This document shows, one piece after another, positions 10,091 to 25,393 of a DNA stretch of 52,864 nt. Location of the stretch: contig WTBT01000038.1 in NCBI GenBank assembly GCA_013138965.1, forward strand, positions 1 to 52,864, given 5' to 3'. Under the pieces are notes generated by a model, which was given only the letters and a program-made list of their open reading frames with translations, was not told the DNA's origin and searched no databases. Numbering within the stretch: position 1 is the first letter of the stretch; the number at the start of each line of letters is the position of its first letter. Source of the DNA: Candidatus Aegiribacteria sp. (GTDB lineage Bacteria; Fermentibacterota; Fermentibacteria; Fermentibacterales; JCC-6). Position numbers and translations under genes: made by a program.

Positions 10091-10591
10091 GTGAAAAGAT
10101 TGATTGTATTGATCCTGATTGCCCTTATTCCTATCTGCGGCTGCGATGAGAGAACAGATGAAGTCGGATCCGGAAACAACAACTCAACCTCCATCGGGCC
10201 TCTTACCGCGCAGCTGCCCGGTATTCTTATTGCACCCACGGGGGATACTGTCCAGGTTCTTCCGGGAACCGATGTGATTCTCTACTACTGGCTTCCTCTT
10301 GAAAAATACGATGAGATGCAGGACGACCTCCGTTTTCTGGCTTCACTTGATACATCCTATCTTGTTCTACCGATGCAGCCGGACCATGAATCACGTAACC
10401 ATGCTCAGCGCGTGGTAAACAACATGGAGATTTCTCTGCCGGTATACCTGGCCGACTCAGCCGTCATGGAAATGATCGATACCGATATCCTGCCATCCTG
10501 CCTGATTCTGACTCACGAAGGCTACGAGATCTCAGAAAATGGTTTTGGAGCGCCTTCAAGGCTTCTGATACAAATCCAGAGTGTGGAATAA
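10091..10591 (+). CDS. Lipoprotein with redoxin-like fold features (function unknown)
   Basis: From GTG 10091 the protein begins with a lipoprotein signal (VKRLIVLILIALIPICGCDE), the acylated Cys most likely being the second of ICGC. The frame stays open upstream to 10022, but that gives an unlikely N-terminus. The mature part (about 145 residues) has a pattern like TlpA/thioredoxin proteins: APTGDTVQVLPGTDVILYYW, a long helix, then PVYLADSAVMEMIDTDILPS and CLILTHEGYEI, resembling the cis-Pro and beta-strand end of redoxins. The CxxC active site is absent, so any redox activity is doubtful. Its stop overlaps the lpxH start (TAATG). Confidence 0.6.
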   Translation: MKRLIVLILIALIPICGCDERTDEVGSGNNNSTSIGPLTAQLPGILIAPTGDTVQVLPGTDVILYYWLPLEKYDEMQDDLRFLASLDTSYLVLPMQPDHESRNHAQRVVNNMEISLPVYLADSAVMEMIDTDILPSCLILTHEGYEISENGFGAPSRLLIQIQSVE

Positions 10592-11358
10592 TGGATAGAT
10601 TCTTCCTGAGTGACGTCCATCTTTTTCCGGAACCGGAGCCTCATCCCGGCCGGGAGAAATTCATTTCCTTCCTGGATTATCTTCATGATTCATTCGATCC
10701 GGGGGAGCTCTGGATACTGGGTGATCTCTTCGATTTCTGGTTCGAATACAGAACTGTAGTCCCTTCCGGATACGAAAGATGCATCTCCTCAATAAGAAAA
10801 CTGACGGATAAAGGCTGGGTATTTCACTTCATTCCTGGAAATCACGACTTCTGGGTCGGAAAGCATTTCGTTGAATCGACTGGAGCCTTCATCCATTCCG
10901 ATGATTATCTGATACTTGATCTCAATGGTAAAAAGGTACTTCTTTCTCATGGTGACGGGCTGGGATCAGGTGATATCGGTTACAAGCTCATTAAACCGGT
11001 ACTGAGATCTGCAATAAGCAGGTTCCTGTTCGGTCTTCTTCATCCGGATCTGGGTACTTATCTCGCAAGGCGCTTTTCAGATACCAGTAAGAGAATTCTC
11101 AGGCATGATCTTGATAAAATACCCTCTGGAATGCAGAAATGGGTCAATGAGAGATTCGATGAAGGTGTTGATATCATCATCACAGGTCATACACACCTGG
11201 ACACTGTTATCAGGAGTAATAAAAGTATATATGTTTCTCTTGGAGACTGGCTGACGAGATTCACCTACTGCCACATGAGAGATGGCACGGAAGAACCTGA
11301 ACTTCTTGAATATTCCTGTAACAGTCCCGAATGCCGGGAACTACTGAAGGAGCGGTGA
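10591..11358 (+). CDS. lpxH: UDP-2,3-diacylglucosamine diphosphatase-like metallophosphatase
   Basis: Calcineurin-type dinuclear metal phosphatase of the LpxH family, which cleaves UDP-2,3-diacylglucosamine to lipid X in lipid A synthesis at the cytoplasmic membrane face. All metal motifs are present: D8/H10 (SDVHL), D45 (GDLFDFW), N84-H85-D86 (GNHDFW), H120 (SHGDG), H200 and H202 (GHTHLD). At 255 residues it is near the usual LpxH length (about 240). The start ATG overlaps the previous stop by one base and its own stop overlaps a GTG of the next gene, so it is translationally coupled. Implies an LPS-type outer membrane; a related non-LpxH phosphoesterase cannot be fully excluded. Confidence 0.85.
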   Translation: MDRFFLSDVHLFPEPEPHPGREKFISFLDYLHDSFDPGELWILGDLFDFWFEYRTVVPSGYERCISSIRKLTDKGWVFHFIPGNHDFWVGKHFVESTGAFIHSDDYLILDLNGKKVLLSHGDGLGSGDIGYKLIKPVLRSAISRFLFGLLHPDLGTYLARRFSDTSKRILRHDLDKIPSGMQKWVNERFDEGVDIIITGHTHLDTVIRSNKSIYVSLGDWLTRFTYCHMRDGTEEPELLEYSCNSPECRELLKER

Positions 11359-12308
11359 TTAACTTGGTTTCGGAAAAAACCGGCAGGAACCCGGATGTTT
11401 CTATCGTAATCCCGGCGTTCAATGAAGAGGAAAGTATTTCCGAACTCGTACGGCAGATCAATGAATGCATGCAGGGCATGCTGTATGAAATCATTGTAAT
11501 CGATGACGGCAGCACAGATGGAACCTGGGAACGTATCATGAAACTCTCCTCCCGGTTCCCCCTGAAGGGTCTCAAACTGAACAACAACCAAGGGAAAGCT
11601 GCGGCTCTGGCAGCCGGTTTCGCGGAATCATCGGGCAAGTATGTGGTGACAATGGATGCCGATCTTCAGGACGATCCATCCGAAATACGCGATATGATCA
11701 AACTAATGGAGGAGAAGAACTACGATCTCGTAAGCGGCTGGAAGAAGAACAGGAAGGATCCTGCCAGCAAGACTCTTCCTTCGAAACTGTTTAATCTCAC
11801 GGTTAAGCTCACCACGGGTGTGAAGCTCCATGACTTCAATTGTGGATTGAAGGTCTACAGAAGCAGCGTGGCCAAGAACCTGGAACTGTATGGAGAAATG
11901 CACCGATACACTCCTGTTCTTGCCGCACAGCAGGGGTTCTCAGTCGGAGAAAAGGTTGTGCACCACCGACCCAGGAAATACGGAAAGACGAAATACGGAA
12001 TGTCCCGTTTCTTCAGGGGATTCTCGGATCTCCTGACAGTTCTTTTCCTTCACAGGTACTGCTACAGACCACTGCATTTCTTCGGAGGCATCGGAACACT
12101 TATTGTACTTATAGGGTTCGGGATCTCCGCATACATGACCATCCTCTGGTTCGGCGGGGAACCCATAGGCAGAAGGCCTCTGCTTCTGCTCGGTGTGCTT
12201 CTTCTGGTGGTGGGATTCCAGTTCATCTCACTGGGACTCCTCGGGGAAATGTTCCTGAAACTGTCATCCAGATCACATTACAGTATAAGGAAACGAACCG
12301 GAGAATAA
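11331..12308 (+). CDS. GT2 polyprenol-phosphate glycosyltransferase (DPM1/ArnC-like)
   Basis: Family 2 glycosyltransferase: SIVIPAFNEEESI at the start of the GT-A domain, IIVIDDGSTDGT, the metal-binding MDADLQDDP, and the membrane-proximal HRPRKYGKTKYGMSRFFRG motif typical of dolichol/undecaprenyl-phosphate sugar transferases. Two C-terminal membrane helices (about 240-265 and 275-300) match the ArnC/GtrB type. Start is uncertain: ATG 11331 lies inside lpxH without a ribosome site; GTG 11355 overlaps the lpxH stop (GTGA) and TTG 11364 follows AAGGAG (11347-11352). It would load a sugar on a polyprenyl phosphate for transfer outside the cytoplasm, matching the envelope theme of this operon. 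Confidence 0.88.
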   Translation: MPGTTEGAVINLVSEKTGRNPDVSIVIPAFNEEESISELVRQINECMQGMLYEIIVIDDGSTDGTWERIMKLSSRFPLKGLKLNNNQGKAAALAAGFAESSGKYVVTMDADLQDDPSEIRDMIKLMEEKNYDLVSGWKKNRKDPASKTLPSKLFNLTVKLTTGVKLHDFNCGLKVYRSSVAKNLELYGEMHRYTPVLAAQQGFSVGEKVVHHRPRKYGKTKYGMSRFFRGFSDLLTVLFLHRYCYRPLHFFGGIGTLIVLIGFGISAYMTILWFGGEPIGRRPLLLLGVLLLVVGFQFISLGLLGEMFLKLSSRSHYSIRKRTGE

Positions 12309-12324: not shown

Positions 12325-12472
12325 CTAATCCACTTTGATAATCCTGAGAGAACCGGAGTTGCTTCCCATATGATAGAACTTCACGAAATACGCGCCAGGC
12401 GGAGCGGAATTCCCTGATTCATCAACTTCGTTCCAAACTACTGAAGATGAGCCTGTACCTTCGTAGGTTTTA
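12325..12472 (-). pseudogene. Relic of a second C-terminal sorting (T9SS/FlgD-like) tail
   Basis: Immediately downstream of the sorting-tail protein on the same strand, but in a different frame, the minus strand reads KTYEGTGSSSVVWNEVDESG, then NSAPPGAYFVKFYH and LRIIKVD before a TAG at 12325. The VVWNEVDESG...PPGAYFVK pattern is the second half of a Por-secretion/FlgD-Ig-like tail. The frame is open only back to a TGA at 12496 and has no start, so it is a truncated remnant, either a tandem duplicate of the neighbouring tail or what is left of another gene. Confidence 0.6.
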
Positions 12473-14257
12473 ATTGAGTTTAACAATATGTTGAATCATA
12501 TCATTAAAACCTTGTATACAGACTCGTGCGATATAAATCCCGGCAGGGATATTCTTTCCATTCCATATCAGTGTTCTGACATCACCCGGAGCACTCAATC
12601 GAGAAGATTCAACCAGTCTACCAGCAAGATCGAATATTTCAATGGTAACTTCTCCCACGGGGATGCCTGAGATCACGAACGTAAGATTTTCCATGAATGG
12701 GTTAGGGTACGCTGAAAGCAGAGGAGTGGAATACTCTTCGTACTCAGGATTCTCTATCCCAACAGATCCTTGAATATCAATGTCATCCACATACAAGCCC
12801 TCTCGTGTGCCGGTATCATCACTGCCGAAAACGAAACGTACCTGCCCGGGACCCGCAAGCGAATCTGGTATTGTGATTCCCCATTGCGACCACCCGGATT
12901 GTCCGGATAAGACACCGGTACCCTCTGCAAAAGGTCCTGTAGAGGAAGGTATGATCTGATAAGAATATCCGCCTGATGGTTCAAGGTCTATCCAGGTTCC
13001 ACATCTGCCATACTGCAATAGGCCACCATCGAATGCGGAAATACCTGAATTATTTAAGGGGATCTGGGCATCGATCCATATCCAGAAAGAAATATCACCT
13101 CCGATAGGCATATTAAATAATGGTGAGGTTACAGCAGAGAAGAGATGATTATCATAATCACCTGAACCGGTATCCCCACACTTGAAGCTCTGTGTCCCGC
13201 CTGCAGTGTGATTTCTTGTGGAGGAGATATGCCAATTGTCCAGCCATCCGGACTCCACAGCACTCCAGAACCATTGTTCTATCCCGGACTCGACATCACA
13301 TTCGATCCCACAACCGACAGGAATATTGAACTCGAAAGAGTTAGAATAACCTCCATCAGCAAATACAGTAAGCTGCATTGCATACGTCTGGTCTTCAGGT
13401 GTTGAGGTTGGTGCTTCGATGCTATAACCACTTGCCCCCCAGGACGAACCACAGGGTGGAATATTCCCGAAGTCATCAGAATTATCATTAACGATAATCT
13501 CAGGTGTGAGGCTCTGAAGAATTGCGAAAACATTTGCCAAAGGAGAGTTCTCCAGATTTGATAACTGAAGATGTAGTGTTATTTCCTCGCCAGATTCGAA
13601 TGCCATATTACCATTTCCGAGAACTGTATCGTCAGTGTACATCCAGGATATCATCGTACTATCCACTGGACCTGCGCCTGATGAAACGGAAATCCAGTCC
13701 CAGCGAGCACCGGGTTCTTCTCCCGTGTAAAGCCCGAATTGACCTGTCTGAGGAGAAGTATCTATTGCATCAAGTGTCCAGCTATCACCGGTTGAGGGAA
13801 CGTCTATTTGGAGCTGAAGTAAATTCCCTTCACAAATGAGGGTTAATTCATACCATACACCGCTTGGAAATGATGCGTAAAGACTGTTATAGATAGTTGA
13901 TGGGTTACCACATGAAATTCTTCTAATTCTGGCCACATCGTGATCAGGAGATACATATGCAGCGATGCCAGTATCCTCTGAATTCAATCTGCATATCACT
14001 CCAAGCGCATGAATAGCCGTCCCACTTATTTCTATCGAGCAGTCTTCACACTGAATATCACCCGGAGGAACCAGGGCAGCATTAGCATATGCTGTACTCC
14101 CATGAGCTTGTCCGGATGAGGAACACCAAGTTCCAGGTAAACAGCGCTGATCCCAGTCGCTTATATCACCATCGGAAAAATCATCAAAAAATACAATGTC
14201 CGAATTATTAGGAGATATTTGAAGTATAGTCGCTAATACCATTAACGTATAAACCAT
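12470..14257 (-). CDS. Secreted protein with type IX-style C-terminal sorting domain
   Basis: A 595-residue exported protein: N-terminal signal-like segment (MVYTLMVLATILQIS), a concanavalin/LamG-like beta domain starting FFDDFSDGDISDWDQRC (about 24-195), a bacterial Ig/CARDB-like stretch (about 200-315), a second jelly-roll-like domain beginning around GIEQWFWSAVESGWLDNW and ending FVFGSDDTGTREGLYVDDI (about 320-500), and the sorting tail SAYPNPFMENLTFVISG ... IFDLAGRLV ... NIPAGIYIARV ... IVKLN. Such tails direct secretion and surface attachment in FCB bacteria. Many Cys (e.g. CEDCS, CGIECDVES) suggest disulfides. Substrate unknown; the beta domains could bind carbohydrate or protein. Confidence 0.85.
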   Translation of the reverse strand: MVYTLMVLATILQISPNNSDIVFFDDFSDGDISDWDQRCLPGTWCSSSGQAHGSTAYANAALVPPGDIQCEDCSIEISGTAIHALGVICRLNSEDTGIAAYVSPDHDVARIRRISCGNPSTIYNSLYASFPSGVWYELTLICEGNLLQLQIDVPSTGDSWTLDAIDTSPQTGQFGLYTGEEPGARWDWISVSSGAGPVDSTMISWMYTDDTVLGNGNMAFESGEEITLHLQLSNLENSPLANVFAILQSLTPEIIVNDNSDDFGNIPPCGSSWGASGYSIEAPTSTPEDQTYAMQLTVFADGGYSNSFEFNIPVGCGIECDVESGIEQWFWSAVESGWLDNWHISSTRNHTAGGTQSFKCGDTGSGDYDNHLFSAVTSPLFNMPIGGDISFWIWIDAQIPLNNSGISAFDGGLLQYGRCGTWIDLEPSGGYSYQIIPSSTGPFAEGTGVLSGQSGWSQWGITIPDSLAGPGQVRFVFGSDDTGTREGLYVDDIDIQGSVGIENPEYEEYSTPLLSAYPNPFMENLTFVISGIPVGEVTIEIFDLAGRLVESSRLSAPGDVRTLIWNGKNIPAGIYIARVCIQGFNDMIQHIVKLN

Positions 14258-14317
14258 TATTTCACTTCTTCCACTTAAATGTTAATAACAATACTGGTTT
14301 TTCGTCAAGACTAGTCG

Positions 14318-14345
14318 ATAGGTACATTATCAATAGGTACATTAT
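14318..14345. repeat. Tandem 13-bp direct repeat upstream of the sorting-tail gene
   Basis: ATAGGTACATTAT occurs at 14318-14330 and again at 14333-14345, separated by CA, giving a 15-bp period. It lies 61 bp before the start of the secreted protein gene and just outside the IS256-like relic. Could be a regulator-binding direct repeat or a small duplication. Confidence 0.55.
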
Positions 14346-14379
14346 GTTGTATTATTCTATACTGGAATAATTAGATCAA

Positions 14380-14843
14380 GTCCCGAATTTTCTGTGACTT
14401 TCATCTAGCACTCCATTGAGATTGTTTCAGCTTCTTTCTTTTCCTGTTCTTCTTCCTAATACCTGCAAGACTTCCATGTTCAGATAACGCTTCCGGTAAT
14501 CCATTTCTCATGTATATCCTGCCAGATTGATCCTATCAATCTGAGAGCACTATTGGGTATCCTGTCTGCACATAGCTCCTCGGTGATCTCATAGGGCTTG
14601 CGCCCCATGTGCTTCTCGAATTCTGCTTCAACGAGTTCCTGGATTCTATCCTCTACCATCTTACGCATGGCATCCTTGTCATTAAGCAGCCTCTGGACAT
14701 TTGCCTCCGATTGTACCAATTTACCATTGGCCATCGTCTTCCTCCTTTGGGTTTGGGTTGATGTGTTGTTAAAACAATACCCAATTGAGGTGATGATGGT
14801 CGCTCCTTAAACGACTGCTAGGAATTCACAGAAAAATAAGGAC
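14380..14843 (-). mobile_element. IS256-family deletion derivative (MITE-like relic)
   Basis: A 464-bp unit with imperfect terminal inverted repeats: left end 14380-14397 (GTCC..A.TTTTCTGTGA) and right end 14826-14843 match at 15 of 18 positions, including 10 identical bases TTTTCTGTGA. Inside is a reading frame whose first part matches the N-terminus and whose last part matches the C-terminus of Mutator/IS256 transposases, i.e. the catalytic middle is deleted. Flanking 8-mers (TAGATCAA and ACAATCAA) share ATCAA and may be a decayed target duplication. It cannot transpose by itself, but intact relatives in the genome could mobilise it. Confidence 0.65.
14480..14734 (-). pseudogene. IS256/Mutator transposase, internally deleted and frameshifted
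   Basis: An 84-codon frame with a good ribosome site (AAGGAGG) and ATG at 14734. Residues 1-55 (MRKMVEDRIQELVEAEFEKH, MGRKPYEITEE) look like the start of an IS256-family transposase; residues 58-80 (IPNSALRLIGSIWQDIHEKW) look like its C-terminal region, so roughly 300 residues with the DDE catalytic site are missing. Near the end the frame breaks: after HEKWITG the neighbouring frame continues as RKRYLNMEVLQ to a TGA at 14427. No transposase activity is possible. Confidence 0.7.
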
Positions 14844-14869
14844 ACAATCAATAATTATATGGAGGTGAC

Positions 14870-15598
14870 ATGTCAGACGCAGTAAAATCTGGAGAAAAGG
14901 GAAGAGGAATAATACAAGAAGTATTCGGTAAAATCCCTCTTCCCCCCAAGTGCGATTCATTTGATCCAACCTACGATAAATACTGGATAAAAAGAATATG
15001 CAATGAGGTCTATACGGAGCCTGCTCGACGGAAAGCTGAAGGTATCAATGATTTTATCAGTAGTGGAGATTCTATTCTTGATGTTGGATGCGGGACTGGT
15101 GATACTCTTGAATACCTCCTGGAAACCCGTGAAGTAGATGGAACAGGATTGGATATTTCGGATACTGCTCTGGCAGTAACATCCTCAAAAGGATTTAAAA
15201 CTTTCAATATCGATCTTACTGACATGGATACTGAGTTGGATTCTATTTATGATCATATTGTCCTATTCGAGGTTGCTGAGCACATCATCAATGCGGAAAT
15301 GATTATGATGAAATTAAAGGGCAAATACCGAAAGGGCTTGTACGTTTCAACTCCAAATCTTGGATACATCGCACATCGTTTCAGATTAATGTTTGGAAGA
15401 TTTCCGCTTACTTACATTTCAGATCCTCGAGAACATGTTCGATACTGGACAGTTAAGGACTTCCTTGACTGGTCAAATTGGTTGGGATTCAAGAAACCTC
15501 AGGTACTTGGGATCAGAGGTAAGGTCAAGGTATTTGGACTTCCAGCAAGATGGCCTTCACTGTGGGCAAGTGAGGTTGTATTCAGATTCACACCATGA
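14870..15598 (+). CDS. SAM-dependent class I methyltransferase
   Basis: A 242-residue Rossmann methyltransferase: SAM-binding motif I ILDVGCGTGDTLEYLLE (about 70), motif II GTGLDISD, and FEVAEHI, with TPNLGYIAHRFRLMFGRFPL and DPREHVRYWT resembling MetW/UbiG-type enzymes. ATG at 14870 with GGAGGT upstream. The gene is A/T-rich for this window (line 14881-14940 has 21 G/C of 60). It starts right after the IS256 relic and converges with the GT4 gene; together with the glycosyltransferases it probably modifies a surface glycan or lipid. Substrate unknown. Confidence 0.85.
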   Translation: MSDAVKSGEKGRGIIQEVFGKIPLPPKCDSFDPTYDKYWIKRICNEVYTEPARRKAEGINDFISSGDSILDVGCGTGDTLEYLLETREVDGTGLDISDTALAVTSSKGFKTFNIDLTDMDTELDSIYDHIVLFEVAEHIINAEMIMMKLKGKYRKGLYVSTPNLGYIAHRFRLMFGRFPLTYISDPREHVRYWTVKDFLDWSNWLGFKKPQVLGIRGKVKVFGLPARWPSLWASEVVFRFTP

Positions 15599-15657
15599 GA
15601 TTATCCTTGCAGATTCATACAAACAAAAAGTAGATATTTGCAAGTGGCTTAGATATA

Positions 15658-16809
15658 CTAATCGGAAGCAAAAGCAAGAATGGCTGATGCCAGGTTATCC
15701 CAGGAATATTTATGCTTTTCCTTTACGATTCCTTCAGCAAGTCTGGATGCGAAATCTTCGTCGAAAAAGCGAATTGTCGCTTCTGCCAGTTTTACGGAAT
15801 CTTCAGGAGGAACAAGGAATCCTGTCACACCGTCATGAACTACCTCCGGCAACCCGCCAACATCTGTTGTTACAACTGGTAGATCGTAATTGTAAGCTAT
15901 CTGAATAATACCGCTCTGAGTTGCTGACAGATACGGAAGCGCGAGAAGATCTGAAGCGATGAAATAATCCTCTACTTTGCTGTCGGGAACGAAACCGTTA
16001 TCGAAAGTTATTATATCTTCGGCACCTGAATTGCTGATTCTGTCGTAATAAGGCGCACTGTCACCGTAGACATCCCCGACTATCAACACTCTGACTCCAT
16101 TCCCATATCTATCTTTCAGGATCGGACATGCATCAATTAAAAAGTTTACTCCCTTATACGGTTTGATAAACCCGAAGAACAGTACCACCTTAATATCTGC
16201 TGGAAGTCCCAGACTTTTCCTTGCTTCCTTTTTGCTTTTTCTTTCCACTCCGGGTTCACCGAAGTCGTAAACAGGATGCGGAATCAATTTAATCCTGTCC
16301 TTTTTAACTTTCGGCAGGACAGAAAGAAGATCACTCTTCACATTCTCTGACTGCGCTATGAACCCGTAACCCTGGCTTAACGCAGTTTTGCCCAATACAC
16401 GGCTGAAGGGCTGTTTCTCATGAGGTATGACGTTATCAAGTATGTAGATAGTTTTAATGTCAGTGTTGCGATTGAGCATCCATGCAATTGCAGCATAACC
16501 AAGCGCAAAAAAGGGCAGCCAGTATTTCATTATTACTGCCACGGGACTTTCTTTTCTGATATCCCTGTAAGTTCTGTACCAGCTTAAGGGTGACCACGGT
16601 ACAAAACGAGGACTGTTCTCCATCCTGATCCATGAAGCAACTTCCCCGAACTGATCCGACCCTGGAAACAAGAAACGTGGGTACTGTTTCTTGAAAGAAG
16701 ACCAGAATACTTCGTTACCCTTTCCCTTGAGTTCTCTCGCAAGCATCCCGAGATAAGTAACGATACCTCCGCGGAAAGGTGGTGCTGGACCAAGAATACA
16801 AACCTTCAT
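15658..16809 (-). CDS. Glycosyltransferase family 4 (GT-B)
   Basis: 383-residue cytoplasmic GT-B enzyme. The N-terminal domain starts KVCILGPAPPFRGGIVTYL (the glycine-rich acceptor loop); the C-terminal nucleotide-sugar domain has VVLFFGFIKPYKGVNFLIDA, VLIVGDVYGD, the ASDLLALPYLSATQSGIIQI motif with its Glu-like position replaced by Gln, and VVTTDVGGLPEVVHDGVTG FLV. ATG 16809 overlaps the upstream gene's TGA (ATGA), making the longer frame start at 16914 unnecessary. The GT4 E-x7-E motif appears altered (TQSGIIQI in place of E..G....E), which may affect donor handling. Second gene of a two-gene minus-strand pair with the GT9 enzyme. Confidence 0.88.
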   Translation of the reverse strand: MKVCILGPAPPFRGGIVTYLGMLARELKGKGNEVFWSSFKKQYPRFLFPGSDQFGEVASWIRMENSPRFVPWSPLSWYRTYRDIRKESPVAVIMKYWLPFFALGYAAIAWMLNRNTDIKTIYILDNVIPHEKQPFSRVLGKTALSQGYGFIAQSENVKSDLLSVLPKVKKDRIKLIPHPVYDFGEPGVERKSKKEARKSLGLPADIKVVLFFGFIKPYKGVNFLIDACPILKDRYGNGVRVLIVGDVYGDSAPYYDRISNSGAEDIITFDNGFVPDSKVEDYFIASDLLALPYLSATQSGIIQIAYNYDLPVVTTDVGGLPEVVHDGVTGFLVPPEDSVKLAEATIRFFDEDFASRLAEGIVKEKHKYSWDNLASAILAFASD

Positions 16810-17879
16810 TTTGAACTCAGCAAACAGTTTATGCTTTCCAGCACAGTATCGGGAGTGAGTGTTTCCATGCAAAAGCTCTTGTTCGTGCATTTGGGTTGGA
16901 AAAAACAGGTGCATTTCTGTTCAGGAGCCAGGATGACTCCCCTCCCGTACAGTTCGAATTCATACGGATTGAATATGTTGTTAAACAGGACAAGCTTCTT
17001 TTTAAGACCGATCGCTATATGCATAGCCATTGTGACGGCAGTAACTACTACCTCGCATCTATCCATGATTGAAATGAACTCATCCAGCGAGAAACAACCT
17101 GGATAGTATGCATTCGTTAACTCCGAAATCCTCTTATTCTTCTCATCTTCCTCCGGCCCTCCAAGAAGCATAACCCTCTTCCCTTGACCAAGAAGAAGTC
17201 GGGTCAGTTCTATCCAGTATTTTTCAGGCCATAATCTGCTGGTCCATCTACTTCCACATCCTGTATTCAGCCCTATAACAGACCCTGTGCCAGGGATCTT
17301 CAGATCCACGCGAGTGTCAGGCGGATCCAGGATGTACTCCTCCCCCTGAAACTCATAGCCACACATGGCCATAGTCTCTTCAACATAGGATAACCTGTTC
17401 GTCCTGTTTTCATCATCGAATAAACCTGTAATGAACTTATTCTGTGCAGCGCCCTTGTCGCAGGGACTGCAGTAACCATTGTCATCAAGTATAAAACCCA
17501 GCTTCCGTCCGGCGTTGATCTCCTTCGCCAGAGCACAGGCTTCTCTGTCTTTATCAAGGTTTATCAACAGATCAAAGTTGGTGTTTCTCAACCACAGTAT
17601 TGACTCCAGAGAGAATGATAACGGATCATCAATGATCTTGGGGAGAAGTTCAGGATACTTGCTGAGCCATGCAATCCTGTGAGAAGGGAATTCCCTTTTC
17701 AGAGGTTCTAAAATAGGTGTAGTTCTGATCACGTCACCGGCAGCAGCCAGTTTGATTACTAGAATTCGCCCTTCTCTTTCAAGATACTCCGGGCAGGAAT
17801 TGCAGTGATATCCATGCAGTTTGTGCGGTTTGCATGGTATGTATCCTAGAAAATGAATGCAATCAGTCTTTATCGTCAT
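16806..17879 (-). CDS. Glycosyltransferase family 9 (heptosyltransferase-like), Cys-rich ends
   Basis: A 357-residue GT9 protein related to ADP-heptose:LPS heptosyltransferases: ILVIKLAAAGDVIRTTPILE near the start, VIGLNTGCGSRWTSRLWPEKYW (nucleotide-binding region), VMLLGGPEEDEKN and VVVTAVTMAMHIAIGLKKKLV. It has an unusual N-terminal cysteine cluster (C7, C16, C26, C29: C-x8-C-x9-C-x2-C) before the GT-B fold and a C-terminal one (CTCFFQPKCTNKSFC), suggesting metal binding or structural disulfides. Probably adds a sugar to a core-type acceptor. Overlaps the GT4 gene by 4 bp; likely co-translated. Confidence 0.88.
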   Translation of the reverse strand: MTIKTDCIHFLGYIPCKPHKLHGYHCNSCPEYLEREGRILVIKLAAAGDVIRTTPILEPLKREFPSHRIAWLSKYPELLPKIIDDPLSFSLESILWLRNTNFDLLINLDKDREACALAKEINAGRKLGFILDDNGYCSPCDKGAAQNKFITGLFDDENRTNRLSYVEETMAMCGYEFQGEEYILDPPDTRVDLKIPGTGSVIGLNTGCGSRWTSRLWPEKYWIELTRLLLGQGKRVMLLGGPEEDEKNKRISELTNAYYPGCFSLDEFISIMDRCEVVVTAVTMAMHIAIGLKKKLVLFNNIFNPYEFELYGRGVILAPEQKCTCFFQPKCTNKSFCMETLTPDTVLESINCLLSSK

Positions 17880-18073: not shown

Positions 18074-18970
18074 CTGAATATTTTTGTTACCGGAGCAGGT
18101 GGTTTCATTGGCTCGTCAGTATTCACCCATTTTTCGGGTAAGGATTTTTCGGTTGAAAAACATGTAAGATCTATTGATGGTGATCTGACTGAGACTTCGA
18201 TACCGGAAAAGGTTAACATAATCGTTAACTGTGCTGGCAGACTGGGACTTCCAGGAGTTAAGCCCAATCAGTTAACGCAATCAAATGTTACCCTGCCAAT
18301 ACTGCTGGCGGATATATGCAAAGCCAGAAAAATCCATTTAATTCATCTCAGCACACCTGGTATTGCGGGTCTTAGAGCGGATATCACTGAAGACAGTCCG
18401 GCTGATCCATGGGGGGATTACGAAAAATCGAAATATCAGGGTGAAGAGGCTCTGCGTAAACACTCTATATCAAAGTCCGGACAATTGACAATACTAAGAC
18501 CGGATTTCGTCTATGGCCCTGGAGACAGGCACAAATTGCCCTTCTTCAAACAGGTTGGAAAAGGTTGGCTTCCTCTTATTGGTTTTAAGGATGTTAGAAT
18601 CAGACCGACCTTTGTTTCAGATGTCTGCAGTGCTATTGAGAATTCAATGCCTGGAAAATGTCTTAATACTGGGCTCTTCAATATTGGTGGTCCTGAGGTG
18701 GTATCTATCAGGAAATTTGGCGCTCTGATAGCAAAGATAATGGGGCAGAAGCTTATATCAATTCCATTACCTCGACTCTTCTACGCTATGGCTCTGAGAT
18801 CAGGACCATTCAAACCCAGATCTCTATCACGCACCAGAGTAAGACTTTTCAGTGAAGATCACTTCGTTTCCATCAACAAAGCAGCTGATGCAGGATTCAC
18901 ACCCTCGATCTCGCTTTCCGATGGTATTCAGAAAACACTGGAATGGTACAGATTCGAGAAACTGCTATGA
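18074..18970 (+). CDS. NAD-dependent epimerase/dehydratase, apparent CTG start
   Basis: Extended SDR (298 residues) acting on nucleotide sugars. The N-terminal Rossmann motif is NIFVTGAGGFIGS, followed by IVNCAGRLGL, IHLSTPG (catalytic Ser/Thr position), the Y-x3-K pair in DYEKSKYQGEEAL and ILRPDFVYGPGDRHKLPFF. The frame from 18038 to 18970 contains no ATG, GTG or TTG until the internal TTG at 18485, which would remove the whole cofactor site. CTG at 18074 immediately precedes NIFVTGAGG and has AGGGAG at 18062-18067 six bases away, so CTG is the likely start. The stop overlaps the next gene by ATGA. A recent start-codon mutation is the alternative. Confidence 0.85.
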   Translation: MNIFVTGAGGFIGSSVFTHFSGKDFSVEKHVRSIDGDLTETSIPEKVNIIVNCAGRLGLPGVKPNQLTQSNVTLPILLADICKARKIHLIHLSTPGIAGLRADITEDSPADPWGDYEKSKYQGEEALRKHSISKSGQLTILRPDFVYGPGDRHKLPFFKQVGKGWLPLIGFKDVRIRPTFVSDVCSAIENSMPGKCLNTGLFNIGGPEVVSIRKFGALIAKIMGQKLISIPLPRLFYAMALRSGPFKPRSLSRTRVRLFSEDHFVSINKAADAGFTPSISLSDGIQKTLEWYRFEKLL

Positions 18971-19923
18971 TGGCAAGGCAACGTCTTGTCTGGCTCAGCA
19001 GAGCTGTATTGCTGATTCTGCTCGCACTTTCAGTAGTATTAATCCTCAAGTATGGAAATGAATGGCTTTCTGAAATAGCACAACTGAGCTGGGAACCTGA
19101 TCCTCTGCTTATTGCGCTTTCAACTCTCCTTCTTCTCTTTTCTTTCTGGTTTGCACCTTTTGGATGGGTATGGATATCAAAAGAGCTAGGATCTACTTCC
19201 AGCTTCAGTGAACTCAGAGGTGTTTGGTTCGCCAGCCAGCTTGGAAGATATATTCCGGGAAAGATCTGGCTTTTCGCCGGGAGGGCTGGTTACCTGAAAT
19301 CAAAAGGTGTCAGCACATTGAATGCTGCTTTAGCGCCAGTGTATGAGTTAATGCACACAGCAGCTGCAGTTGGCCTTATAACCTTTTTCACCGCGTTGCT
19401 GTTTCCTGAGTTTCTTAACTCGAATATTCTGAGATTAGCGGCAGTTCTGGCAGGAATATGTCTGCTGGTCCTGCCATTGCTCCATCCAGTGCAGAAATAC
19501 GTTTATCGACTCAGGGAGAAAGGGAATAGTAATACTGCCGGTTCTGGAAGAACGGATAGGATGCCATTTCTTCCACCAAACCTCTCGATAAGAGTGATCT
19601 GTTTTTATTCTGTTCTCTGGATTATCAGAGGGTTTTCTTTATTCATCTGGCTTGCGGCTCTCGGAATATCCAACAAGGGACTCTGGGCTTGCATAGCTGC
19701 AACCCCACTATCCTGGCTGGCCGGGTATATTGTCTTCCTCGTCCCGGGTGGTGTTGGTGTGCGAGAAGCTGCAACCGTTGCAATGATAGCGGGTCCGGGT
19801 GAAACTGGTCCGATTCTTGCAGCAGTACTGGGTCAGCGATTGTTGCTTGCTGTTTTAGAAGTGATCCTAGCTGGAATCAGCGCGAAATCAATTCCGTTTC
19901 TCCGAAAGGAAGTGAAAGGATAA
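18967..19923 (+). CDS. LPG_synthase_TM / flippase-like membrane protein
   Basis: About 318 residues with eight or so hydrophobic segments, matching the lysylphosphatidylglycerol-synthase transmembrane (UPF0104/AglD-like) family: FWFAPFGWVWISKELG, FASQLGRYIPGKIWLFAGRAGY, TPLSWLAGYIVFLVPGGVGVREAATV and LGQRLLLAVLEVI. The RYIPGKIW and VPGGVGVRE signatures are diagnostic. The soluble lysyl-transferase domain of MprF is absent, so it resembles the lipid/glycolipid translocase half. Start ATG 18967 overlaps the epimerase stop and its own stop overlaps the YfhO gene. A paralogous domain recurs in the radical SAM fusion at 22255, suggesting the pair acts on the same lipid-linked product. Confidence 0.85.
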   Translation: MMARQRLVWLSRAVLLILLALSVVLILKYGNEWLSEIAQLSWEPDPLLIALSTLLLLFSFWFAPFGWVWISKELGSTSSFSELRGVWFASQLGRYIPGKIWLFAGRAGYLKSKGVSTLNAALAPVYELMHTAAAVGLITFFTALLFPEFLNSNILRLAAVLAGICLLVLPLLHPVQKYVYRLREKGNSNTAGSGRTDRMPFLPPNLSIRVICFYSVLWIIRGFSLFIWLAALGISNKGLWACIAATPLSWLAGYIVFLVPGGVGVREAATVAMIAGPGETGPILAAVLGQRLLLAVLEVILAGISAKSIPFLRKEVKG

Positions 19924-22265
19924 TGAAACTCCCTATCTGGCAGAAGTGTATACTGCCGGGCATGTTACTGATCCTGGTTATCCTTACATACTGGCCTGTA
20001 TTCAACTCCGCAAAACTTCCCGGAGGTGAGTTGAGTGATACAGTCAGTCAGGGTTACCCATTCTTCACTTTTACAGAGAAGGCGGTGCAGAATGGACGGC
20101 TACCGCACTGGAATCCATATATCTTCTGCGGTGTACCATTCTATTCCTCATTCTCGGCACCTGTCTTCTATCCTGTTCGAGGTCTGCTCCTTTTACTCTC
20201 CGGGACTGGGGGAGTCGCAAGATTCCTGTTCCCTATTCATATGTTATTCGGAGGAATATTCGCATGGTTGTTTCTTCGATCCATCGGAGTGAGTAAATGG
20301 GGCAGAATAGTGGGTGCCCTTGCATTTGCCTGCACATCATGGTCGAATACCCTCTTTTATGCCGGCCATGCCAGCAAGATCATCTGCTGGAGCTTTCTTC
20401 CGCTTCTGCTCTATTCATGTGAGAAGTGGATGCAAACCAGGAAAGGAAAGTTCATTGCCATAGGAGGACTTGCGTTGGGAATGCAATCCCTGGCAAGCCA
20501 TCCTCAGATGATCCTCTACTCGACCGGAGCAGCCCTGATCTGGCTTGGTTTCAGAACCTTTTCTTCCGGTGGATCCTGGAAGGTAAATACACTGAAAGCT
20601 CTGATGGGCTTCTCAAGCATTATGCTTCTTGCTGTGGCAATTGGAGCTGTACAGCTACTTCCCGCTTACAACTTCTCGAAGTATTCCACAAGAGGAGATG
20701 GCCTTTCTTTCGATCAGGCTGCCAGCTATTCTCTGCCACCGGAGGAAACCCTTACAATGCTTTTCCCGAAGTTGTTCGGTTACAGACATGGATTCCCGGG
20801 CAGCTCTATCTCTGGAGTACCGCTTTACTTCGGCAGACTGGGTCTTCGCCTTAGCAGTGAATTCGTTGGGATATCTGTTTTCCTTTTAGCTTTGGCAGGC
20901 TTTATGGGGGCACAGAAAAAATACCGGTGGCCTCTGCTGACAATTATGGCGGCGGGTCTTCTTGTATCATGGGGAGGATATACCCCACTATTCGAAATCC
21001 TGTACAGGACCATCCCGTTCTTCAGAAAACTCAGAGCACCTCACATGGCTGCCTTTCTTACTACTACTGCAATAGCGCTGGCAGCCGGACCAGGTTTCGA
21101 TGCGATCTTCGTCAGGAAGAAATTCAACAGCAGGAAATTACTGTTCGGAATCGCAGCTTTCTCTGGAACATGTATTCTCGTTTATCTTCTTGCAGATGTT
21201 CTTCTTCCAGGTCTTCAATCCGGATGGTGGAACAGGATGGGTAACGCAAGCGCAACCGGATACTCCTTTGTGGTACAGAGGCGTGTGGACATGGCAGCCC
21301 CGGACTTCCTCAAGGCAGCCGGAGCAGCTCTTGTTATCTGCGGATTACTGTTCTTCAGAAAACAGTTTAAGGAGCGATATTTCATACCGGGCATGATCAT
21401 CATCATTCTTCTGGCAATTGAGCTTGTTCCTGTAGACAGAGATTTTCAGGTCTACCTGCCCCAGACCGATGTAAATCAACTGTTTACTGCCCCGACTGAT
21501 CTGTCTGAAATGACCGGGGAAGGCAGACTGCTTCCTGGAGGTAATGATTTCATTCCATTCGGAATCAGATCTGTAATGGGCTACCATGCCGCAAAACCTG
21601 CTGTAGCCGAGGATCTACAAATGATACTGTCTTCCGGTGGAATTGCAGCATTCAGGCAAACCGCCTTCACCGTTCTACAGAGCCAGGATGGATATCTTAC
21701 TTACGAACAATTCAGAGAATCCCTGATCCTCCAAACCCGTGAGTCAGATCCATCCTATGCTGATACTCTTGAAGCCTTCCTTCCTGAAAAACCTCTCCCC
21801 AGGGCATGGTTCGCAGAATCCTGGGTTGAACTGGATGAGAACAGATGCCTTTCACTTCTGGCATCAGGTCTCAATCCCCAGGAGATGTCTGTTCTATACG
21901 GTGAGGTTGAACTTCCAGAACACATGGATGTTTCAGAAGCTGAGGTAACAATTGTCACTGATGAAGCTGAAAGGGTTGTTATAACTACGAGTAATTCCCA
22001 TGATGGTCTTCTGGTTCTGGCCGACTTGTGGTATCCCAGATGGCAGATACGAATTGACGGTAATCCGGTGCCGATGCTTCAGGCGAATCACTGGCAGAGA
22101 GGTGTAGTAGTTCCCTCCGGATTCCATGAAGTGGAATTCAGCTTCGATTCATCCGATGTTACATTGGGGCTGATCATATCGATTATTGGAATTCTGGCAG
22201 TCTTATTGATAGTGGTTTTTGAAACGGTAACGTATAAAAGGAGAGAGCGTCTAAATGAAAGGTGA
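19923..22265 (+). CDS. YfhO-family multispanning membrane protein
   Basis: A 780-residue GT-C-like membrane protein of the YfhO family (members are linked to glycosylation of lipoteichoic acid or other envelope polymers). About a dozen membrane helices; conserved first-loop features GGELSDTVSQGYPFF and GRLPHWNPYIFCGVPFYSS, then SLASHPQMILYSTGAALIWLG and FRKLRAPHMAAFL, and a C-terminal extracytoplasmic domain (about 580-745) with VLADLWYPRWQIRIDGNPV typical of YfhO, followed by a last helix. It overlaps both neighbours (1 bp and 11 bp), so the three membrane genes form one translation-coupled unit. Confidence 0.88.
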   Translation: MKLPIWQKCILPGMLLILVILTYWPVFNSAKLPGGELSDTVSQGYPFFTFTEKAVQNGRLPHWNPYIFCGVPFYSSFSAPVFYPVRGLLLLLSGTGGVARFLFPIHMLFGGIFAWLFLRSIGVSKWGRIVGALAFACTSWSNTLFYAGHASKIICWSFLPLLLYSCEKWMQTRKGKFIAIGGLALGMQSLASHPQMILYSTGAALIWLGFRTFSSGGSWKVNTLKALMGFSSIMLLAVAIGAVQLLPAYNFSKYSTRGDGLSFDQAASYSLPPEETLTMLFPKLFGYRHGFPGSSISGVPLYFGRLGLRLSSEFVGISVFLLALAGFMGAQKKYRWPLLTIMAAGLLVSWGGYTPLFEILYRTIPFFRKLRAPHMAAFLTTTAIALAAGPGFDAIFVRKKFNSRKLLFGIAAFSGTCILVYLLADVLLPGLQSGWWNRMGNASATGYSFVVQRRVDMAAPDFLKAAGAALVICGLLFFRKQFKERYFIPGMIIIILLAIELVPVDRDFQVYLPQTDVNQLFTAPTDLSEMTGEGRLLPGGNDFIPFGIRSVMGYHAAKPAVAEDLQMILSSGGIAAFRQTAFTVLQSQDGYLTYEQFRESLILQTRESDPSYADTLEAFLPEKPLPRAWFAESWVELDENRCLSLLASGLNPQEMSVLYGEVELPEHMDVSEAEVTIVTDEAERVVITTSNSHDGLLVLADLWYPRWQIRIDGNPVPMLQANHWQRGVVVPSGFHEVEFSFDSSDVTLGLIISIIGILAVLLIVVFETVTYKRRERLNER

Positions 22266-24357
22266 TCATAAAAAACTGTTCCATCACCTGACTACCTGGG
22301 GTGGTATGATTCTCCTTATCGTAGCTGTATTCTATTTCATTTTTGAACTATGGCCCGAATGGCGTCCGGAACTGGAAGAATTCTGGAAGAATTCCAGGGA
22401 GAGCGCCAGTCTTCCAATGATCGGTATATCTTTCCTGTCCCTCCTGCTTGGTTACTATTTTGCTCCGGCTGCTTGGAGGAAAATCCTTGATGCGTTGAAG
22501 ATCCCGAAAATCGACAAGGGTGAAGTAAGAAGGAACTGGTACATCACTCAGATGGGCCAGTACGTTCCGGGAAAACTTTGGATGGTTGTTGGAAGGTTAA
22601 CTTTTCTGAAAGCAAACGGCACTGGCCCCGTTAAAGCAATAACAGCATTTGTTCTCGAGAACCTCTACATGATGGCCGCCATGACTATTATGGCCTTGAT
22701 AGGTCTTCCGTTTCTGGGCCTGGCAAATGTACCTCTTCCTGTAGTAATAGCTCTGTGGATCTCAGCTGGCCTGGGAATTATCATGCTGTTCGCGCCGAAA
22801 ATCCAGAAAAAAATAGCACACAAGCTAAGTCATAGATTTGGCACGGAGATAGACAGTCTTCCCCATATCTCACACAAGCATCAGGCTATTTTCATCGGAT
22901 ACCATCTGCTTTCATGGAGCCTTCGCAGTATGGCTCTCTATTTCTGGTTCCGCGGCTTCGGAGTAAAGCCGGATCAACCCTTTGCAATGATAGCGATCTG
23001 CCTGCTGGCCGGACCGGTCTCCTGGTTCATTGCTCTTGCTATGGTTTTCATACCCGGAGGTATCGGTATCAGAGAGGGTGTCCAGGGGCTTCTTCTTTCA
23101 GGTTTCGTGCGCGGTGGAGCGGAAGTCGCCACTGTAATAGCACTTGGACAGAGGGTAATGCTGATCTTAATCGAAGGCCTGTATGCTCTTCAAGCAATCG
23201 TTTATGGCGCCATGAGAAAAAGATTCACTACGAAAATGAATCATATAGAGCAGGTTTTTCATCTTGCAGGAAGCTTGTTCAAAGGTGCTCTTGCAATGCG
23301 AGGTCTCTCCCCCCCACCTCAGCCGATCAACGTGACATTCTCTGTTACACGTCGCTGTCAATCAAGGTGCAGAACATGTTACATATGGAAGCATAACTCT
23401 GATGATGATCTTGATCTTAACACGATTGAAAGGCTTTTCAGATCTATCGGATGGACCTATTTTTTCAATGTTTCCGGTGGGGAACCCTATTTAAGAGATG
23501 ATCTACCGGAAATAGTAAGACTTGCCTGCAGATTCATGAAGCCTGCAATAGTACATATTCCAACCAATGCTCTTGCTCCAGAGCGAATTGAAAGAATAAC
23601 ACGGGAAATACTCAACGTGATTGAACAGGAAGCACCTGGCACCCTTCTAACCGTAAAACCCTCCTTTGATGGAGTGGGAGCTTTGCATGATGAGATCCGA
23701 GGTGTACCCGGCAACTTTGAAAAGCTTCTGGAGACTATCGAAAGGCTAAAAATACTCAGGAAACAGTATAAGTATCTTCATGTTGGGGTTGGAACAGTTG
23801 TCTCTCGGTTTAATGCTTCGCATCTCCAGGAAATAATCGAGTACGCAAGAGGACTTGATGTTGATACGTACATCAATGAAATAGCAGAGGAACGTGAAGA
23901 GTTCTTTAATCTCGGGTCAGGAATTACCCCGGAGAGTCACAGTTACGATCAACTGATGGATATATTCAAGGAATCAGTCAGAGGGAAAATGAAAGATATG
24001 AAGATACTATCTCGGATCACTACTGCTATGAGGATTGTTTACTACGACCTTGCAGTAAAGATCCTTGACAGTAATAAACAGGAAATACCATGCAATGCCG
24101 GCATATTGAATGTGAATATCAATTCAAATGGCGCCGTATGGCCTTGCGCAGTTCTGGCTTACAATGCAGAAATGGGTGTAGTCAGTCAGAACAATGACTT
24201 CCAGTACATCTGGCGATCAAGGAAAGCAAAGAATATCAGAAGATCAATCAGGAGAGGGGAATGTGCTTGTCCACTTGCGAATCAAGCTTACTCCAACATC
24301 CTCCTCCACCCCCCAAGCCTAATAAGAGCTCTCTGGATAGCATTCCGAGGTAAATAG
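22255..24357 (+). CDS. Fusion: LPG_synthase_TM flippase-like domain + radical SAM/SPASM-like domain
   Basis: A 700-residue two-part protein. Residues 1-325 are a multi-helix LPG_synthase_TM module (TQMGQYVPGKLWMVVGRLTF, FIPGGIGIREGVQGLLLSG, ALGQRVMLILIEGLYALQ), paralogous to the gene at 18967. Residues 355-700 are a radical SAM enzyme: INVTFSVTRRC then C368-x3-C372-x2-C375 for the 4Fe-4S cluster, SGGEP at 407-411, and a SPASM/twitch-like C-terminus with C-x12-G-x4-C (IPCNAGILNVNINSNGAVWPC region) and a later C-x-C (GECACPLAN). The domains are in one frame with no break. Such a fusion is not one I know; it suggests radical chemistry on a membrane lipid or peptide coupled to translocation. The TAG stop runs into the inverted repeat of the transposon. 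Confidence 0.9.
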   Translation: MKGDHKKLFHHLTTWGGMILLIVAVFYFIFELWPEWRPELEEFWKNSRESASLPMIGISFLSLLLGYYFAPAAWRKILDALKIPKIDKGEVRRNWYITQMGQYVPGKLWMVVGRLTFLKANGTGPVKAITAFVLENLYMMAAMTIMALIGLPFLGLANVPLPVVIALWISAGLGIIMLFAPKIQKKIAHKLSHRFGTEIDSLPHISHKHQAIFIGYHLLSWSLRSMALYFWFRGFGVKPDQPFAMIAICLLAGPVSWFIALAMVFIPGGIGIREGVQGLLLSGFVRGGAEVATVIALGQRVMLILIEGLYALQAIVYGAMRKRFTTKMNHIEQVFHLAGSLFKGALAMRGLSPPPQPINVTFSVTRRCQSRCRTCYIWKHNSDDDLDLNTIERLFRSIGWTYFFNVSGGEPYLRDDLPEIVRLACRFMKPAIVHIPTNALAPERIERITREILNVIEQEAPGTLLTVKPSFDGVGALHDEIRGVPGNFEKLLETIERLKILRKQYKYLHVGVGTVVSRFNASHLQEIIEYARGLDVDTYINEIAEEREEFFNLGSGITPESHSYDQLMDIFKESVRGKMKDMKILSRITTAMRIVYYDLAVKILDSNKQEIPCNAGILNVNINSNGAVWPCAVLAYNAEMGVVSQNNDFQYIWRSRKAKNIRRSIRRGECACPLANQAYSNILLHPPSLIRALWIAFRGK

Positions 24358-24381
24358 GGTCGGACATAACATCGTACACTT
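24356..24381 (+). repeat. Left 26-bp inverted repeat of the transposase unit
   Basis: Reads AGGGTCGGACATAACATCGT then ACACTT, the exact reverse complement of 25488-25513. The first two bases fall in the TAG stop codon of the upstream radical SAM fusion gene, and the inner end touches the transposase stop at 24380. Confidence 0.9.
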
Positions 24382-25393
24382 ACGAAATTAGAATTTCTAT
24401 AATAAATGGATGTTCTCTCTGTAATTCTGCTCCTCTCCGAACTGCCTTCGCAGCACCTGACCTGCTAACATTGAGTAATCTTGAAATATCTCTATAACTG
24501 AGACCGAACTTCTGCGAACATATCCATGCTATCGCTCCACGAGCTTCCGCAAGCTCAGAACTACGACTATTCCCGCGAATTACTTCGCGGGATAAGCCCA
24601 TTTTAACTACTATCTGATCAAACAGTCGTTCAATTCTCTTGTGTATGTTCTCTCTGTTCCTAACCTCCAGTGATTTGAAATCATTTAACCGACTTAGAAC
24701 TCTTTTGGCGAATTCCTTATCTCCCAGAACTCTGCAGATACCAGTCCAATGCGAAGTTCCAGTTCTCTGATCTGAACTCTTAATTCCATTTTTACCTATA
24801 CTAAAGTTTCCGCTAACCATTTCACTGGAGGCCATACTATTAACATCATTCAGTAGAGATGTCTGATAGTTCTTTATTGCATAGTATTCAGTATCGCCAA
24901 AATACTCCAATACAGAATCTCTCTTCATCCATTTACACTCCATCTTTCCGATAAGACATGGATGTCCGGACCACTTATACGTATCTAACTCTTCCAGCGA
25001 ATTGACAACCTTCGCCTTTAAAGGATTAAGATGAACGTAGTTAATGAGTTTCAGAAAATAGTTTTCCTCTTGTACGAGTATTGATTTAAATCGCCCCTGA
25101 AACACATGTCCAGATCTATCATGGCGCCTGTTATATGAAATAGCGAATCCTGTAAGTAACCGGTGCATCAGAAGACTTATGGGTTCTGGCCCGGTTCGGA
25201 TAAGAAGATGTAGATGATTTGGCATTATCACCCACGCATATACGGAAAACTTCAATTCAACAACAAGCTGTTCCAACCTGCTTCTAAGATCCTCGTACTC
25301 AGATAGGTTTGAGAAAAGAGTCCTGCCGTCTATCCCCCGTGCCATTATATGGTGCAAGGCATCTTCCCAATCGGGTCGCATTATTCTAGCCAT
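24380..25393 (-). CDS. REP-associated tyrosine transposase (Y1, IS200-like)
   Basis: 337-residue transposase. N-terminal Y1 HUH domain: HHIMARGIDGRTLF, the HUH motif in MPNHLHLLIRTG, FAISYNRRHDRSGHVFQGRF (with the catalytic-Tyr region near SYNRR/VFQGRFKS) and NYVHLNPLKAKVV. The C-terminal third adds a helical DNA-binding part ending in an HTH-like IAWICSQKFGLSYRDISRLL NVSRSGAAKAVRRG, like DnaA-domain-type RAYTs. Frame and motifs are intact, so it may be active. ATG at 25393; 94 bp separate it from the right repeat. Lower G/C than the adjacent pur genes. Confidence 0.88.
   Translation of the reverse strand: MARIMRPDWEDALHHIMARGIDGRTLFSNLSEYEDLRSRLEQLVVELKFSVYAWVIMPNHLHLLIRTGPEPISLLMHRLLTGFAISYNRRHDRSGHVFQGRFKSILVQEENYFLKLINYVHLNPLKAKVVNSLEELDTYKWSGHPCLIGKMECKWMKRDSVLEYFGDTEYYAIKNYQTSLLNDVNSMASSEMVSGNFSIGKNGIKSSDQRTGTSHWTGICRVLGDKEFAKRVLSRLNDFKSLEVRNRENIHKRIERLFDQIVVKMGLSREVIRGNSRSSELAEARGAIAWICSQKFGLSYRDISRLLNVSRSGAAKAVRRGAELQREHPFIIEILIS

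Follow-up and report, generated by a model that had tools for sequence, protein, structure and literature searches.

The Arn pathway combines a polyprenyl-phosphate sugar (ArnC), a flippase (ArnEF), and an outer transferase (ArnT), and its logic can be likened to that of the operon described here. Among radical SAM enzymes, BlsE, DesII, BtrN, and SpeY act on soluble small molecules, DesII on a soluble nucleotide sugar, in contrast to the lipid-linked sugar proposed below for the enzyme of this locus. A full SPASM domain contains a seven-cysteine set with two auxiliary clusters. The twitch domain contains CX9-15GX4C and then a short C-x-C or C-x2-C pair, with one auxiliary cluster. We know of no established case in which the assembly of O-antigen, capsule, or glycoproteins involves radical chemistry on a membrane-bound precursor. 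The LPG_synthase_TM (PF03706) proteins are predicted as flippases of lipid-linked saccharides in glycosylation pathways (PMC5898192), and the term radical SAM is absent from the main text of that paper. Titles and the starts of abstracts in the open literature on radical SAM enzymes in polysaccharide contexts contain nothing on the family described below. An earlier note on this DNA had stated that no characterized protein has both an LPG_synthase_TM and a radical SAM domain; indeed, no such fusion was found in the open full-text literature, which leaves most subscription journals outside.

The window, that is, the whole stretch of 52,864 nucleotides analyzed here, belongs to a 2.9-Mb genome. 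In the named contig collection, its closest relatives belong to Candidatus Fermentibacterota (Aegiribacteria, Sabulitectum, and Fermentibacter). The fusion gene (22255-24357, + strand) is a single frame of 700 codons without a stop. Based on its translation, Pfam, its relatives, and alignment, the 700-aa protein consists of LPG_synthase_TM and a radical SAM/SPASM (twitch-like) enzyme. Pfam detected LPG_synthase_TM at aa 24-300 (E = 2.2e-16, 60.6 bits against a gathering cut-off of 33.4), Radical_SAM (PF04055) at aa 363-529 (E = 4.3e-12, 46.9 bits against 29.5), and SPASM (PF13186) at aa 613-672 (E = 4.9e-6, 27.2 bits against 21.5). The membrane half corresponds to aa 1-327 (22255-23235, + strand) according to Pfam, hydropathy, and the structure model, and the radical SAM half corresponds to aa 328-700 (23236-24354, + strand) according to the alignments. 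The CxxxCxxC motif is C368/C372/C375, and it is invariant in all 13 sequences of alignment A1 (11 fusions including that of the window, and two radical-SAM-only sequences), as is S407-G-G-E-P411. The unbroken frame, the joining of the two domains, and the positions of both motifs agree with the earlier note.

The same note described a partial SPASM cysteine set. The set is real, but it is twitch-like rather than a full SPASM. Four auxiliary cysteines (C613-x12-G626-x4-C631 and C670-x-C672) are fully conserved both in A1 and among the 30 unfused sequences of alignment A5 (two from Fermentibacterota and 28 others), which falls short of the seven cysteines of the full SPASM. C-x12-G-x4-C agrees with the twitch motif, and the second pair is C-x-C, not C-x2-C. 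Judged from the sequence, these cysteines appear to resemble the twitch set for one cluster. In many stand-alone members of the family (L081-L125), WPCC stands in place of the WPCA of the Fermentibacterota sequences; this extra cysteine adjoins a ligand of the auxiliary cluster.

Among the best 25 of the 35 NCBIfam models matching the protein, none reaches its curated cut-off, and all are far below. The best match is the PTO1314 radical SAM family (TIGR03961; E = 6.1e-17), of which the protein is not a member (61.9 bits against a cut-off of 306.05). The best NCBIfam E-value among 53 relatives is 3.9e-22. In the phage collection, three matches were found, 22-26% identical and to the radical SAM half only.

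The fusion is widely conserved in the order. Among 42 genomes of the order, including that of the window and tallied by hand from the match list, 33 have the entire fusion, its frame open and free of stops, at ~50-93% identity. Five have partial fusions, either at contig edges (G014, G020, and G032) or with broken frames (G035 and G040). Two (G005 and G036) have the radical SAM half alone, one (G004) has only a contig-edge fragment, and no ortholog was found in the last one (G009), a genome that is 66% complete. In 18 genomes from elsewhere in the domain, there is no full-length match to the fusion, and the best E-values are 3.2e-22 or weaker. The full open fused frame recurs in 33 of the 42 genomes, which excludes an assembly artefact such as a missing stop or a frameshift. 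For the four pairs tried, dN across the linker (codons 301-355) is 0.012-0.143 against dS of 0.20-1.47; judged from these values, the junction is evolving under purifying selection. The earlier note had asked about continuity across codons 325-360, about the same architecture in other genomes, and whether close relatives have two genes separated by a stop. The continuity and the architecture are both borne out by these genomes, and separate genes were not seen in close relatives, where the membrane domain is either fused or gone. LPG_synthase_TM and radical SAM are separate neighboring genes in two distant loci (L082 and L125). In G013, a fragment with a stop (C202:2972-3226; L016/L052), which shares 62% identity with aa 5-89 of the fusion, stands just before the full-length fusion gene and is perhaps a remnant of duplication.

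In the alignments, the unfused G005 form begins at the position of codon 328 of the fusion, with which the N-termini of the stand-alone relatives also align. This codon is ATG in the window and in most relatives compared, and CTG, GTG, or GTC in some. Re-initiation at this codon was considered and rejected: the 24 bases preceding the ATG in the window contain no stretch resembling a ribosome-binding site, no obvious one was seen by eye in the relatives, and several of them have CTG, GTG, or GTC there. In the radical SAM tree, which includes all 45 stand-alone sequences and 22 of the fusions, the radical SAM halves from Fermentibacterota form one group (100/100) apart from all 45 stand-alone sequences. 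G005 is nested among the fused sequences (96/96), implying that its membrane half was lost. The placement of G036 fits either loss or primitive absence of the membrane half. The fused membrane domain is placed as sister to the single LPG_synthase_TM protein of the operon (90/93; not starred, and the set includes long branches), consistent with duplication and subsequent fusion. The LPG_synthase_TM gene of the operon may have been duplicated, and one copy would have joined in-frame to the beginning of a radical SAM gene that was already present.

The membrane half has eight hydrophobic segments by hydropathy, and its inner loops are rich in K/R. This positive-inside pattern is consistent with an N-in/C-in topology, which would place the radical SAM half in the cytosol. 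The model of the fusion (54 sequences; pLDDT 84.4, pTM 0.76) matches SkfB, DesII, anSME, and BlsE. It also matches MprF (7duw at rank 30, E = 2.8e-5; 7f47 at rank 38), with low TM-scores (0.25-0.31) and a high rmsd over the full alignment. The MprF match is probably carried by the membrane half. The model of an unfused protein (pLDDT 91.9, pTM 0.91) matches SkfB first and then BlsE, anSME, and DesII; the target TM-score of BlsE, 0.66, is the highest among the 50 matches listed. The structure alignments included 26 (A4) and 28 (A5) of the 45 stand-alone proteins. Fold matches include the sugar-modifying DesII, BlsE, BtrN, and SpeY at 15-20% sequence identity, and the predicted fold does not decide between a sugar and a peptide substrate.

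The operon order in the relatives listed is LpxH-like protein, ArnC-like GT2, GT4, SDR, LPG_synthase_TM, YfhO-like protein, and the fusion. In the window, the LpxH-like metallophosphoesterase (10591-11358, + strand), a conserved neighbor in the relatives, is followed by the ArnC-like GT2 glycosyltransferase of the polyprenyl-phosphate sugar synthase type (11331-12308, + strand; 9bhc, E = 2.7e-47). The NAD-dependent epimerase/reductase (SDR; 18074-18970, + strand) has a probable CTG start with an AGGGAG-like stretch ~7 bases upstream. A truncated epimerase was rejected: the list of ORFs with ATG, GTG, or TTG starts gives only the C-terminal 161 aa, and the gene is complete from the probable CTG. 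The second, single LPG_synthase_TM protein (18943-19923, + strand) is a paralog of the fused domain at 30% identity. The last gene before the fusion (19923-22265, + strand) overlaps its start. It encodes a 780-aa membrane protein that is weakly YfhO-like and possibly a GT-C transferase, with profile scores below cut-offs (Pfam, 15.4 against 28.5 bits; NCBIfam PgfM1, 18.8 against 1400). No solved structural relative of this protein was found.

In both the window and the G017 locus (L043), a methyltransferase and an inverted GT4/GT9 pair (12470-17879) interrupt the conserved cluster, and a T9SS-tail protein adjoins them. The inverted GT4 (15658-16914, - strand) is 33-35% identical to the operon GT4 of the relatives. 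A search of the rest of the genome of the window found no operon-type GT4; the best match is this inverted GT4 at 35%. On the other side of the fusion gene, 24380-25393 (- strand) encodes a protein similar to REP-associated tyrosine transposases, with a score of 73.3 bits that is below the cut-off of 80. Its C-terminus matches a DnaA-type helix-turn-helix, again below the cut-off (28.1 against 31.5 bits). A scan for promoters and terminators yielded 28 and 14 sites, compared with 25.9 and 12.6 in shuffled sequences, and gave no signal.

The radical SAM half belongs to a wider family. The contig scan matched 102 relatives, of which 80 loci were kept: 35 from Fermentibacterota (L047-L080 and L126) and 45 from elsewhere (L081-L125). 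These stand-alone relatives are 46-54% identical and are distributed in many bacterial and archaeal phyla; the taxa include Nanoarchaeia, Woesearchaeota, Methanophagales, Myxococcota, Planctomycetota, Lachnospiraceae, Calditrichota, and Gemmatimonadota. None of the 45 loci outside Fermentibacterota has the fusion to a membrane domain. Their frames are mostly ~380 aa. Four (L087, L110, L111, and L113) have long upstream extensions, which do not match the membrane-domain profiles and are read as spurious. The N-termini of the stand-alone proteins have an average net charge of +4.6. An N-terminal amphipathic membrane helix was rejected, as the hydrophobic moment is not above that of controls (median control fraction 0.62).

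The neighborhoods of the stand-alone genes were compared by profiles built from the Fermentibacterota operon, with thresholds of at least 100 bits for GT4 and GT2 and at least 45 bits for SDR. The operon-type GT4 was found near the stand-alone gene in 28 of the 45 loci, SDR in 21 (19 on a second scan), and GT2 in eight; near-copies among the loci (e.g., L091, L095, and L096) inflate such counts. A Wzx-type cluster, named from its representative (Polysacc_synt/Polysacc_synt_3), occurs in 12 loci. In eight of these, it is directly upstream on the same strand, which corresponds to about four lineages because five of the eight form one clade. An LPG_synthase_TM gene is present in five loci, four by profile (L082, L100, L115, and L117; 53-64 bits, against 0/20 controls) and L125 by Pfam. 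It is directly upstream of the radical SAM gene only in L082 and L125, both recognized by Pfam; Pfam gave no LPG_synthase_TM match in L100, L115, or L117. Altogether, a flippase-type gene (Wzx-type or LPG_synthase_TM) is near the stand-alone gene in 17 of the 45 loci, directly upstream in 10. By the labels used, 28 of the 45 have neither type, and five (L083, L085, L088, L094, and L122) lack all five gene types. The absence of a gene says little where the locus spans only 3-4 kb, as some do. No homolog of the YfhO-like protein of at least 50 bits was found in the 45 loci. The multi-TM ORFs near the stand-alone genes (Pfam, 48 of 58 ORFs) include Polysacc_synt (12), PMT_2 (11), and LPG_synthase_TM (4).

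As a yardstick, 20 neighborhoods of other Fermentibacterota radical SAM genes were scored for GT4, SDR, GT2, LPG_TM, and YfhO, and none passes any of these thresholds; the Wzx-type cluster was not scored in them. Because these controls come from one phylum and the test loci from many, they are not a matched control. A genome-wide search for PF03706 covered 16 of the 45 stand-alone genomes. The L125 genome has one match in 1.5 Mb, which is the gene beside the radical SAM gene, and the L082 genome has four in 1.6 Mb, one of which adjoins the radical SAM gene. Six of 47 clustered loci (L084, L086, L089, L104, L105, and L124) have a gene for a B12-binding radical SAM protein (cluster c8, labeled after its representative in L105) near the stand-alone gene; in L084 and L104, it is directly upstream.

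The earlier note had proposed radical chemistry coupled to lipid export at the membrane, and had named peptides, proteins, and lipids as targets of radical SAM enzymes. Judged from the gene company, lipid-linked sugars are better candidates than peptides, proteins, or bulk phospholipids. We propose, with a probability of roughly 45%, that the fusion acts in a surface-glycan pathway, where a polyprenyl-linked sugar is modified and then flipped by the fused domain. The ArnC-like GT2, a GT4, and the epimerase/reductase would build a glycan linked to polyprenyl-(pyro)phosphate. The radical SAM half, on the cytosolic side, would alter a sugar of this glycan, and the fused LPG_synthase_TM half, as a flippase of the MprF/AglD type, would move the modified glycolipid across to the outer face; there, the YfhO-like protein may transfer the sugar onward.

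This proposal is suggested by the retention of the fusion (33 full and 5 partial in 42 genomes) with a selected linker, and by the presence of the ArnC-like GT2, SDR, second LPG_synthase_TM, and YfhO-like protein in the operon. The stand-alone loci often contain glycan genes, none of the 20 controls reaches the GT4, SDR, GT2, or LPG_TM thresholds, and the sole PF03706 gene of L125 adjoins its radical SAM gene. The sugar-modifying enzymes and MprF among the fold matches, and the positive-inside pattern that puts the radical SAM half in the cytosol, are also in favor. So is the predicted role of PF03706 proteins as flippases in glycosylation pathways (PMC5898192). On the other side, 28 of the 45 stand-alone loci have no flippase-type gene, five have none of the five types, and the eight upstream Wzx cases reduce to about four lineages. 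The YfhO-like assignment is below cut-offs, and SkfB, the best fold match, is a peptide maturase. G005 and G036 have no membrane half. The coupling to export stands in part: the fusion is real and widespread and flippase-type genes accompany 17 of the stand-alone genes, but the covalent link is dispensable in two genomes of the order, since they keep the radical SAM half alone. We suggest only tentatively that this radical SAM family of bacteria and archaea modifies sugars on a polyprenyl carrier together with the flippase of that carrier, the two being one polypeptide in Fermentibacterota, where the radical enzyme would pass its product to its own flippase.

It is conceivable, although rather unlikely, that the radical SAM enzyme acts on a soluble nucleotide sugar before the lipid carrier, and that the membrane half tethers it or works separately. 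The fold matches to DesII and BlsE, the stand-alone members without a membrane domain, and the loss of the membrane half in G005 and its absence in G036 would agree with this. However, the flippase-type genes near 17 of the 45 stand-alone genes, 10 of them directly upstream, suggest a tie to membrane translocation, as does the selected fusion. It is improbable that the protein matures peptides or proteins, as a RiPP-like or lipoprotein-modifying enzyme whose membrane half acts as an anchor or exporter. The closest fold is that of the RiPP maturase SkfB, and there is weak profile kinship to WgkB, PapB, and the like, all far below cut-off. Against this, a separate precursor gene was seen neither in the 22-bp gap after the fusion gene in the window nor in the overlap that precedes it, and the neighbors are glycan genes. 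It is likewise improbable that the fusion is a lineage accident, in which the halves are independent and their joining has no functional meaning. Its confinement to one phylum among the 80 loci kept, with stand-alone genes elsewhere, and the loss in G005 could be read in this way, but of the 40 genomes in which the radical SAM half, or enough of the fusion to be informative, is present, 38 (33 full and 5 partial) retain it, at identities down to about 50% and with a selected linker. The least probable reading is that the enzyme modifies a polyprenyl or phospholipid chain by radical chemistry and that this lipid is then flipped, as the similarity to the tetraether lipid synthases Tes/GDGT-MAS is weak (Tes, 37.9 of 450 bits, far below cut-off) and the neighbors are sugar enzymes, even though the family of the fused domain moves lipids in MprF (PMC5898192).

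Under the preferred reading, modification of a polyprenyl-linked sugar and its flipping by the fused domain, the locus can be compared with known systems. BlsE, DesII, BtrN, and SpeY share fold matches and twitch-like auxiliary cysteines with the radical SAM half. In the Arn pathway, ArnC is close to the GT2 of the window; in contrast, the window has LPG_synthase_TM in place of ArnEF and the weakly YfhO-like protein in place of ArnT, and its operon adds a radical SAM enzyme. MprF also joins a flippase-type domain, akin by Pfam to the membrane half, to an enzyme altering the moved cargo. However, that enzyme is the lysyl-transfer domain pfam09924 (DUF2156), of which Pfam found no match in the fusion protein, and the context of MprF is aminoacyl-lipid whereas that of the fusion is sugar. 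In AglD of Haloferax, LPG_synthase_TM is likewise joined to an enzyme that takes part in assembling lipid-linked sugars (PMC5898192), but the enzyme half is GT2 and the domain order is reversed; Pfam found no GT2 domain in the fusion protein, and the GT2 of the window is a separate gene. The fusion serves as a Rosetta-stone link, indicating a likely partner (a flippase) and pathway (glycan assembly) for a radical SAM family of many phyla. If the preferred reading is true, radical chemistry would take place on a membrane-bound glycan precursor, and the principle of MprF and AglD, in which one domain modifies and its neighbor moves, would be extended to a third class of enzymes.
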